From contig CAJOFN010000007.1 of the NCBI GenBank assembly GCA_905233905.1, positions 1-57,096 on the forward strand: 57,096 nucleotides of DNA, in the 5' to 3' direction. A model generated the notes under the pieces. The model had not been told where the DNA came from. It saw nothing but the letters and a program-made list of their open reading frames with translations, and made no database searches. The DNA comes from an uncultured Lachnospiraceae bacterium. GTDB taxonomy: Bacteria > Bacillota > Clostridia > Lachnospirales > Lachnospiraceae. A program made the position numbers and the translations under genes. Of this stretch, positions 30,823 through 34,374 are shown in pieces (the first letter of the stretch is position 1; every line of letters starts with the position of its first letter).

Positions 30823-30842
30823 CAGGCAGGAATGAATATACG

Positions 30843-30873
30843 CGCTCGGAAGTATTTGCTTCCGGGCGTTTTA
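30843..30873 (+). terminator. Rho-independent terminator after ftsZ
   Basis: CGCTCGGAAG-TATTTG-CTTCCGGGCG followed by TTTTA. Confidence 0.75.
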
Positions 30874-30896: not shown

Positions 30897-32501
30897 ATGA
30901 AGCTTTCTTTTATCGGGGCGGATCATGAGGTGACGGGAAGCTGCCACTACATAAGCGTGGGGGACAAGCATCTGTTAGTGGACTGCGGTATGCAGCAGGG
31001 CCCGGATATATATGAGAACCAGTCCATACCGGTACATGCTGCCGAAATAGACTATGTATTTGTCACACACGCCCATATTGACCATTCGGGGCTGCTTCCC
31101 CTGCTTTATGCACAGGGCTTTCGGGGCTCCATTTTCGCGACACCCGCAACCTGTGAGCTTTGCGGCATAATGCTTAAGGACAGCGCCCACATACAGGAAT
31201 CTGAGGCGGAATGGAAGAACCGCAAGGCCAAGCGCGCCGGCAAGGATGAGATAGAGCCCCTGTATACAATGGACGATGCTATCGGGGTAATGCAGCTTTT
31301 TGTGTCATGTCCTTACCATGACAAGCTGGAGATTTCTGATGAGATAGAGGTAAGGTTCATAGACGCGGGACATCTTTTGGGGTCTTCATCTATTGAAATG
31401 TGGCTCAAGGAGGGCAGTGATCATAAAAAGATAGTTTTTTCCGGTGATATTGGAAGCCGCAGAAAGCCTCTTATCAAGAATCCCGAATACATCACCGGGG
31501 CGGATTATGTACTTATGGAAGCAACCTACGGAGACCGGGACAGGGGAGATACGGGAGACTTTGCAAAGTCTCTTGCGTTAGTGATCAAAGAGACCTTATA
31601 TGAAAAGGGCGGAAATCTTGTGATACCGGCTTTTTCTGTAGGCAGGACCCAGGAGATACTGTACTTTATCAGAAGGATCAAGGAAGAGCATCTGATAGAC
31701 GGGTATGAGAGCTTTCCGGTGTATATGGACAGTCCGCTTGCGGTTGAGGCCACTCATATTTTTCATGAGAATTATCAGGACTGCTACGATGAGGAGGCTT
31801 CCGCTCTTGTGGGGAGTGGAAGGAATCCCATAGGCTTTGCGGGGCTGAAGATCGCCGTCAGTCCCGATGAGTCAAAGATGATCAACTCTGATAATACGCC
31901 GAAGGTTATAATATCTGCTTCGGGAATGTGTGAAGCAGGCCGAATCCGCCACCACCTGAAGCACAACCTCTGGAATCCCAACAGCACAATACTCTTTGTG
32001 GGCTATCAGGTGGTTGGAACCCTGGGACATACGCTGCTTAACGGGGCAAAGGAGGTCCGGCTGTTCGGTGAGACGGTAAGCGTCAACGCCAGGATAGAAA
32101 ACCTGCCGGGCATATCAGGACATGCTGACAGGAACGGGCTTTTGACATGGATTGGCAAATTTGAAAAGCCGCCGGAGAAGATATTCATTGTCCACGGTGA
32201 TGATGCCATTGTGGATGAATTTGCCAGAACCGTTGCCAAAGCAACAGGGACAAGCGCATATGCTCCCTATTCAGGCGACAGCTTTGATCTCATTACCGGC
32301 AGGCAGGTGGAGATCGGTTCAAGAAGGATCAGGGAGAAGAAGCCGAAGAGCATGCGGCCTTCCTCCAATGTATTTGCGAGGCTGCTTGCGGCAGGGGCAA
32401 GGCTTATGCATGTTATTGAGAAGTGTGAGGGGATGGCGAATAAGGATATTGCGAAGTTTGCGGATCAAATTAACTCTCTTGCGGATAAGTGGGAGATGTG
32501 A
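30897..32501 (+). CDS. MBL-fold beta-CASP (CPSF-like) RNA-processing exonuclease family protein
   Basis: HAHIDHSG, GDIGSR, ISASGMCEAGRIRHHLKHNL. Confidence 0.92.
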   Translation: MKLSFIGADHEVTGSCHYISVGDKHLLVDCGMQQGPDIYENQSIPVHAAEIDYVFVTHAHIDHSGLLPLLYAQGFRGSIFATPATCELCGIMLKDSAHIQESEAEWKNRKAKRAGKDEIEPLYTMDDAIGVMQLFVSCPYHDKLEISDEIEVRFIDAGHLLGSSSIEMWLKEGSDHKKIVFSGDIGSRRKPLIKNPEYITGADYVLMEATYGDRDRGDTGDFAKSLALVIKETLYEKGGNLVIPAFSVGRTQEILYFIRRIKEEHLIDGYESFPVYMDSPLAVEATHIFHENYQDCYDEEASALVGSGRNPIGFAGLKIAVSPDESKMINSDNTPKVIISASGMCEAGRIRHHLKHNLWNPNSTILFVGYQVVGTLGHTLLNGAKEVRLFGETVSVNARIENLPGISGHADRNGLLTWIGKFEKPPEKIFIVHGDDAIVDEFARTVAKATGTSAYAPYSGDSFDLITGRQVEIGSRRIREKKPKSMRPSSNVFARLLAAGARLMHVIEKCEGMANKDIAKFADQINSLADKWEM

Positions 32502-32571
32502 TTATTTAGTCTTCTGTGATTGTCGGTCTGCGGCTCTTACCGGCAGACCTCTGATGCAGTAGTCGAAAAAA

Positions 32572-32621
32572 CGAAATAAAACCGGTGTCAAGAAAAAATA
32601 CTTGACACCGGTTTTATTTCG
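32572..32621 (+). terminator. perfect 21-bp inverted repeat (8-nt loop), probable bidirectional terminator overlapping the ylxM-ffh promoter
   Basis: CGAAATAAAACCGGTGTCAAG-AAAAAATA-CTTGACACCGGTTTTATTTCG. Confidence 0.85.
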
Positions 32622-32629
32622 TGTATAAT
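32602..32629 (+). promoter_or_regulatory. consensus sigma-A promoter TTGACA-N16-TATAAT upstream of ylxM-ffh
   Basis: -35 at 32602-32607 (inside palindrome arm), -10 at 32624-32629. Confidence 0.85.
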
Positions 32630-32671
32630 TTGTAAGCGTGTGTTTCATGGGGCATGGTAAAAGGTGGCATC

Positions 32672-33010
32672 ATGGAAGAGAATGTGCGTCTGGCATATCT
32701 TTATGATTTCTACGGAGAGCTGCTGAAGGAGGATCAGAGAGAGCTGTACTCGGCATTTGTTTTCGATGATCTTTCCCTGCAGGAGCTGGCGGATGAACGG
32801 GGTATATCCAGACAGGCAGTACACGACAGGGTGAAAAGGTGCATAAACTCCATGGAGGAGTACGAAAGGCAGCTTGGACTTATAGATAAGTATCACAGGA
32901 TAGAAGAGCTTACTAAAGAGATAGCAGCAAGCCCGCTTCTTGCAGGAGGAGACGCTGCCGAAAGGGAGAGGGTGCTGTTACTGCTTGACAGGATCACAGA
33001 GGTGCTTTGA
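32672..33010 (+). CDS. ylxM: YlxM family DNA-binding/SRP-associated protein
   Basis: LYDFYGELLKEDQRELYSAFVFDDLSLQELADERGISRQAVHDRVKR; upstream of ffh. Confidence 0.92.
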   Translation: MEENVRLAYLYDFYGELLKEDQRELYSAFVFDDLSLQELADERGISRQAVHDRVKRCINSMEEYERQLGLIDKYHRIEELTKEIAASPLLAGGDAAERERVLLLLDRITEVL

Positions 33011-34374
33011 TGGCTTTTGACAGTTTATCAGACAAGCTTCAGGAAGTATTCAAAAACCTTCGCAGCAAGGGAAGGCTTACAGAGTCCGACGTTAAGGCGG
33101 CGCTCAAGGAAGTCCGTATGGCGCTGCTGGAGGCGGATGTTAATTTCAAGGTGGTCAAGGAATTTACCAAAAAGGTTTCGGAGAGAGCCGTCGGGGCAGA
33201 TGTGCTGACGGGCTTGAACCCGGCCCAGATGGTGATCAAGATCGTCAACGAAGAGATGACCGCCCTTATGGGAGATGAGACTACAGAGATAGCCTATCGT
33301 CCCGGACAGCAGACCACTATCCTGATGATGGTTGGACTGCAGGGTGCAGGTAAGACGACTACGGTAGCCAAGCTGGCAGGCAAGATGAAGCTGAAGGGCA
33401 AGAGACCCCTTCTTGTAGCCTGCGATATATACAGGCCTGCCGCCATTGATCAGCTAAAGATCAACGGCGAAAAGCAGGAAGTACCCGTATTTGAAATGGG
33501 TACAAAGAAAAAGCCCGCGGTTATCGCAAAGGAAGCGGTCAAATACGCGGCAGAGCATGACAATAATGTAATAATATTAGATACTGCCGGGCGGCTGCAT
33601 GTTGATGAAGACATGATGCAGGAGCTGTGCGATATAAAGGCAGTCTGTGATGTGGCGCAGACCATTTTGGTAGTGGATGCCATGACAGGTCAGGATGCGG
33701 TCAACGTCGCCTCTACCTTTGATGAGAAGGTTGGCATAGACGGGGTCATCCTTACGAAGCTGGACGGCGACACCAGAGGCGGCGCGGCGCTGTCCATCAA
33801 GCAGGTTACCGGCAAGCCCATCCTTTATGCAGGTATGGGAGAGAAGCTTTCAGATTTAGAGGTATTCCATCCGGACCGCATGGCAAGCCGTATCCTTGGT
33901 ATGGGAGATGTTCTTTCCCTTATTGAAAAGGCCCAGGCCAATATTGACGAGGAAGCCGCAAGGAATCTGGGAAGCAAGATCGTAAAGGCCGAATTTGATT
34001 TTAATGATTATTTAGAATCCATGCGTCAGATGAAAAAGTTAGGCAGCATATCGGACATCCTTGGGATGCTGCCGGGTATAGGCAATCTTACCGGCGGACA
34101 GATGTCGCAGCTTACGGATGCAATGGATGAGTCAAGGCTTAAGAGACTGGAAGCCATCATTTATTCCATGACCCCGGCTGAAAGGGCTGATCCCAAGCTG
34201 CTTAACCCAAGCCGCAAGCGAAGGCTGGCCGCAGGCGCCGGAGTGGATATATCGGAGGTCAACCGTTTCATCAAGCAGTTCGACCAGTCGAGAAAGATGA
34301 TGAAGCGTATGCCCGGCATGCTGGGCGGTGGCAGAAAAGGCAAGATGGGAAGAATGAATTTTCCCTTTGCATAG
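33010..34374 (+). CDS. ffh: signal recognition particle protein Ffh
   Basis: MVGLQGAGKTTTVAKLAGK, DTAGRLHVDE, Met-rich M domain. Confidence 0.97.
   Translation: MAFDSLSDKLQEVFKNLRSKGRLTESDVKAALKEVRMALLEADVNFKVVKEFTKKVSERAVGADVLTGLNPAQMVIKIVNEEMTALMGDETTEIAYRPGQQTTILMMVGLQGAGKTTTVAKLAGKMKLKGKRPLLVACDIYRPAAIDQLKINGEKQEVPVFEMGTKKKPAVIAKEAVKYAAEHDNNVIILDTAGRLHVDEDMMQELCDIKAVCDVAQTILVVDAMTGQDAVNVASTFDEKVGIDGVILTKLDGDTRGGAALSIKQVTGKPILYAGMGEKLSDLEVFHPDRMASRILGMGDVLSLIEKAQANIDEEAARNLGSKIVKAEFDFNDYLESMRQMKKLGSISDILGMLPGIGNLTGGQMSQLTDAMDESRLKRLEAIIYSMTPAERADPKLLNPSRKRRLAAGAGVDISEVNRFIKQFDQSRKMMKRMPGMLGGGRKGKMGRMNFPFA

Follow-up and report, generated by a model that had tools for sequence, protein, structure and literature searches.

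In the genome of an uncultured Lachnospiraceae bacterium, a perfect palindrome between an RNase gene and the ylxM-ffh operon carries the -35 hexamer of a promoter, which raises the question of what this DNA does and which part of it is under selection. The window that was analysed has 57,096 nucleotides and is one whole contig. Upstream of the palindrome, the plus strand encodes a metallo-β-lactamase/β-CASP RNase (30897-32501), the transcript of which the palindrome would end. The gene adjoins ftsZ, and between the two a separate, ordinary terminator-like hairpin of 12 pairs followed by TTTTA is found at 30842-30869. The best NCBIfam match of the RNase is the model of a type VII CRISPR Cas14 nuclease with 406 bits, well below the cut-off of 800, and the product is probably a relative of housekeeping RNases. 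Downstream, also on the plus strand, follow ylxM (32672-33010), encoding a UPF0122 HTH protein with the helix ISRQAVHD, and ffh (33010-34374), encoding the SRP GTPase according to its profile match. Reading of the translations places rpsP, a KH protein gene, rimM, trmD and rplS after ffh. For ylxM, the start at 32672 is preferred over 32654 on the basis of homologues and of the ribosome-binding site AGGTGG, which is seen in the plus-strand sequence at 32662-32667. The YlxM protein reaches 94.8 bits with NF045758 (cut-off 80) and 89.5 bits with PF04297 (cut-off 22.7), its gene adjoins ffh, and matches to PDB entries of the family (1XSV, 1S7O) have E-values of 4e-14 and 2.5e-12.

An inverted-repeat search identified two arms of 22 nt each (32571-32592 and 32601-32622) that are 100% complementary and enclose an 8-nt loop, while the runners-up of this search across the 57-kb window reach 79-86% complementarity. 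The perfect complementarity described in an earlier note on this DNA was thus found, but the arms have 22 bp and not 21. Folded as RNA, the 52-nt palindrome (32571-32622, without strand assignment) reaches -34.2 kcal/mol with a z-score of about -11 relative to shuffled sequences. At its centre lies the 22-bp element TGTCAAG-AAAAAATA-CTTGACA (32586-32607, plus strand), in which the loop or spacer AAAAAATA (32593-32600, plus strand) is located directly upstream of the -35 hexamer; the 15 bp that flank this element in each arm are species-specific and account for the terminator shape. The right half-site contains the -35 hexamer TTGACA (32602-32607), and the -10 hexamer TATAAT (32624-32629) follows on the same plus strand after a 16-bp spacer. 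This pair, which the earlier note had also pointed out, matches at 12 of 12 positions in a promoter scan and lies within the 16-18 bp spacing of a sigma-A promoter, and no other promoter-like site between 30000 and 36000 exceeds 10 of 12. A divergent promoter starting from the TTGACA of the left arm was ruled out, as the minus strand has no -10 hexamer at 16-18 bp.

The stem followed by a U-tract that is typical of intrinsic terminators is present on both strands. On the minus strand the palindrome passes a terminator scan, and on the plus strand the GC-rich CCGGTGTCAAG/CTTGACACCGG followed by TTTTATTT is recognized by reading of the sequence. In our reading, the scanner counts the plus-strand TTTTATTT as stem because it pairs back with AAATAAAA. 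The U-rich stretch TTTTATTTC (32612-32620, plus strand, identified from the sequence), a putative terminator tail, is located inside the -35/-10 spacer. The claim of a GC-rich inner stem with T-rich 3' flanks on both strands is therefore borne out by the scan for the minus strand and by reading for the plus strand.

For a comparison with relatives, about 165 genomes belonging to the same family, order or class supplied the sequences upstream of ylxM, yielding 167 ylxM loci. Up to 280 bp upstream of ylxM, these were searched for the symmetric core pattern TGT[A/C]AAG-N8-CTT[G/T]ACA with 14 scored positions. The pattern is matched at all 14 positions in 118 of the loci and at 13 in another 30, so that 148 of 167 reach at least 13/14, compared with 0 of 835 dinucleotide-shuffled controls. 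The same threshold is reached in 76 of 80 further ylxM loci from named genome records, and the named loci with a site include those of Roseburia inulinivorans DSM 16841, Lachnospira multipara ATCC 19207, and Butyrivibrio proteoclasticus. In a phylum-wide sample, at least 12/14 positions match in 30 of 30 ylxM loci. The site is missing in a few ylxM loci (L013, L073, L173, and L181). The conserved unit comprises the inner 22 bp, with the loop, and it is also kept in loci without an extension of the stem. The occurrence of the same element upstream of ylxM in relatives, suggested as a check before, is confirmed, and the core is almost certainly a conserved regulatory element of the ylxM-ffh operon.

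The position of the element relative to the promoter follows two architectures. In 113 loci, comprising most Lachnospiraceae and the window, the right half-site is the -35 hexamer (-35 type), and the spacer to the -10 hexamer has 17 bp in 95 of these 113 loci and 16 bp in the window. In 35 loci the promoter is a separate one further upstream, and the start of the element is mostly 5-9 nt past its -10 hexamer, at the expected start site (+1 type); almost the whole phylum sample shows this arrangement too. Two sites are present in 16 of 167 loci, and about 12 promoters have both a -35 and a +1 site, 50-62 bp apart; in three loci (L064, L066, and L165), two elements stand in tandem before ylxM at a distance of about 20 bp. 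In some loci of the +1 type (L029, L145, L164, and L177), the flanks of the element pair CCACC with the Shine-Dalgarno sequence GGTGG, and a hairpin of this kind in the leader could hide the ribosome-binding site of ylxM. A fixed motif that moves between -35 and +1 behaves like the operator of a repressor. As the +1 form is more widespread, the -35 form is probably the derived state, and the likely order of acquisition would be a widespread +1 operator, then the overlap with the -35 hexamer in most Lachnospiraceae, and then a terminator stem in some of them. The spacer of the -35-type relatives has 88-96% A at positions 2-6, and this A-tract upstream of the -35 hexamer may function like a proximal UP element. 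The A bias of the spacer is weaker in the +1 form, and a role as UP element leaves the bias in this form unexplained.

Could the palindrome be nothing but an intrinsic terminator working in both directions, which for economy has bases in common with the next -35 hexamer, with no regulator involved? The perfect 22-bp stem of the window with its GC-rich centre and T-rich tails on both strands fits such a structure, and the relatives also give support to it. The flanks lengthen the stem by at least 3 pairs in 49 of the 113 -35-type loci, and stem extension and U-tract occur together in 43% of the -35-type relatives. A TTTT within 18 nt past the site is found in 73% of the loci with at least 3 extra pairs versus 27% of those with 0-1. 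The uninterrupted Watson-Crick run in the flanks has a mean of 2.76, compared with 0.62 +/- 0.08 after the flanks had been shuffled among the loci, and the longest extension among the 113 loci, 14, is that of the window. Furthermore, the left half-site has the C that pairs with the G of the -35 hexamer in 78 of 113 loci, with a share of 78% in loci with an extended stem versus 60%. Against a plain terminator, 37 of the 113 -35-type loci have no pair adjoining the core, and the inner 22 bp and the loop are kept in these loci with unpaired flanks as well as in those in which the element lies past the -10 hexamer. Terminators are, moreover, not conserved across a phylum in the sequence of loop and stem, nor are they tied to one gene. 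A plain terminator is therefore considered quite unlikely. The core, being conserved also without stem extension and also downstream of the -10 hexamer, is operator-like, and around it the outer arms differ from species to species while the core recurs unchanged from one genus to the next. The terminator would thus be a variable and optional layer on top of the conserved core, plausible in the window and recurrent in relatives. Of the earlier proposal that the same bases serve as terminator and -35 hexamer, the overlap is real and has comparative support, but the terminator is only the outer layer.

Another explanation places the control at the RNA level, with the element as a 5'-leader hairpin that is bound by YlxM or masks the ribosome-binding site. 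It draws on the widespread arrangement, which starts at the predicted transcription start and abuts the ribosome-binding site, and on the flanks of the loci of this type, which add at least 5 pairs in 11 of 35 cases, e.g., CCACC with GGTGG. The constant A-rich orientation relative to the gene and the binding of SRP RNA by YlxM of S. mutans point in the same direction. In 113 loci, that of the window among them, the element however precedes the start site, and the ylxM mRNA would thus exclude it. No Rfam family, and hence no known cis-regulatory RNA, reached the gathering score, and the miRNA-type matches of a permissive search were dismissed as hairpin artefacts. Control by a leader RNA is accordingly regarded as very unlikely, and a DNA operator is the preferred reading.

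An operator of this kind should be specific for its operon, and the distribution of the site agrees with this. The full palindrome has a single copy in the 1.65-Mb genome, and the element is tied to ylxM in relatives, which excludes the dispersed, REP-like mobile palindrome that the earlier note had considered. The exact site occurs in 104 of 140 genomes of the family, nearly always exactly once, and among the about 75 sites listed almost all are upstream of ylxM. In 444 kb around ylxM, without the 400 bp upstream of the gene, only five positions reach 13/14, and most of these are again at the heads of operons. In L298 (859-940), tandem elements precede rpsP at the head of a rearranged rpsP-permease-ylxM-ffh operon, and in L293 (36-60) a similar site is found with an APC-type permease gene before ylxM; in both cases, the element or elements lie 2-3 kb upstream of ylxM at the operon head. 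In L292 the element is located between ylxM and ffh. Some matches were treated as chance: a second site with one mismatch in the window genome (C55:1582, L190), which seems to fall within an unrelated gene, and exact sites away from ylxM inside long frames (IleRS-like in L237, hydrogenase-like in L234). The element is thus a conserved inverted repeat at the promoter of the proposed regulator, operon-specific and not dispersed.

A second group of sites was found at a different operon. Exact sites precede yceD-rpmF-plsX in L235, L236, L238, and L245, and precede plsX in L239, where yceD lies elsewhere (L235, L236, L238, L239, and L245 belong to genomes G096, G030, G169, G161, and G254, respectively). 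At least 13/14 positions match in 4 of 69 sampled yceD loci, compared with about 0.4 expected. In the window genome, the yceD-rpmF-plsX-acpP-rnc-smc operon lacks the site. In a minority of relatives, the regulator may have yceD-rpmF-plsX as a second target. This operon commonly runs on to the SRP-receptor gene ftsY in clostridia, and, if the target is real, control would be expected to reach ftsY there.

Which protein reads the site? The operator could belong to a transcription factor other than YlxM. The tie between YlxM and the DNA is one that we infer, and the minor yceD-rpmF-plsX target would fit any factor that controls genes for translation or the SRP. However, there is usually one exact site per genome and it lies at an HTH gene, which is the signature of autoregulation, and the half-site together with the Gln/Arg helix of YlxM fits the rules of sigma region 4. 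Another factor is thus judged unlikely, and YlxM itself is the preferred binder. The protein gives weak HTH matches to sigma-70 region 4 models, just under the cut-offs, and its helix ISRQAVHD was read against VTRERIRQ of sigma70. With a helix pattern that parsed 224 YlxM proteins and left 65 unparsed, the residue aligned with sigma70 E585 is Gln in 224 of 224 parsed proteins, and the one aligned with R584 is Arg in 219 of them. The invariance of the Gln is not built in, as the pattern left the residue at position 585 free. In sigma70, R584 contacts -31 and E585 contacts -33, and the exchange E585Q relaxes the specificity at -33 (PMC2613000). The half-site CTT[T/G]ACA is a -35 hexamer that is degenerate exactly at the base equivalent to -33. 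This base is T in 83% of the +1-type sites and G where sigma is also served. Of all observations, this match between residue and base hints most strongly at YlxM as the protein that reads the site.

Taken together, the core is rather likely to be a DNA operator by which YlxM represses its own ylxM-ffh operon. The sigma-region-4-like helix of YlxM would read each -35-like half-site CTT[G/T]ACA. In the lineage of the window, where the right half-site is the -35 hexamer, YlxM and the sigma factor would compete for the same base pairs, and in other Bacillota an operator at the transcription start would block initiation or escape. Repression would affect ylxM-ffh-rpsP and the genes onward. In the window genome, extension of the arms would in addition have turned the palindrome into an intrinsic terminator that stops transcripts of the RNase gene upstream and has its U-tract between the -35 and -10 hexamers. 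YlxM of S. mutans is an SRP accessory protein that binds Ffh and SRP RNA (PMC8546722, PMC4993169), and free YlxM could thus signal SRP demand; by conjecture, it would report unfilled demand and tune the supply of Ffh. In the mainly open-access literature searched, a DNA target of YlxM, a conserved DNA element or autoregulation was not found.

Several observations sit less easily with an operator for YlxM. The centres of the half-sites are 15 bp apart, which is unusual for a rigid HTH dimer, and a spacer that is A-rich on one strand is needless for a symmetric dimer. In about one third of the loci with the element at the transcription start, pairing of the flanks involves the Shine-Dalgarno region, as would be expected of an RNA element, and the work on S. 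mutans places YlxM in the SRP. A broader proposal, offered tentatively, is that YlxM is an ancient autorepressor whose sigma-region-4 helix, with a natural equivalent of E585Q, reads -35-like sequences and couples SRP assembly, via the binding of Ffh and SRP RNA, to ffh transcription by competition with sigma, in some genomes also at yceD-rpmF-plsX. YlxM is encoded in most Bacillota genomes searched, and the site at its own promoter offers a concrete target for its DNA-binding-like helix. The element would tie SRP supply to transcription in bacteria, and in the window one stretch of DNA would serve as proposed operator, -35 hexamer and putative terminator together.

Each of these layers has a known counterpart. 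TTGACA-16-TATAAT with an A-tract directly upstream is the arrangement of a sigma-A promoter with a proximal UP element, and the window has the same; here, however, the A-tract doubles as the spacer of the proposed operator, and the motif also occurs at +1 without a -35 hexamer. With intrinsic terminators, the palindrome of the window shares the GC-rich stem, the U-tract and the place after an upstream gene, but relatives can do without the stem, which surrounds a conserved core. Within the YlxM/UPF0122 family (PF04297, NF045758; S. mutans; PDB 1XSV and 1S7O), the gene in the window is a clear member with ffh adjacent. The known role of the S. mutans protein is the binding of Ffh and SRP RNA, whereas the conserved DNA element is a feature of the window and its relatives. 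Finally, autoregulatory HTH repressors have an inverted-repeat site at their own promoter, at -35, at +1 or sometimes at both, as does ylxM. In contrast to these, the half-site at ylxM is itself -35-like, the proposed reader is sigma-4-like, and the regulon has nearly a single site.
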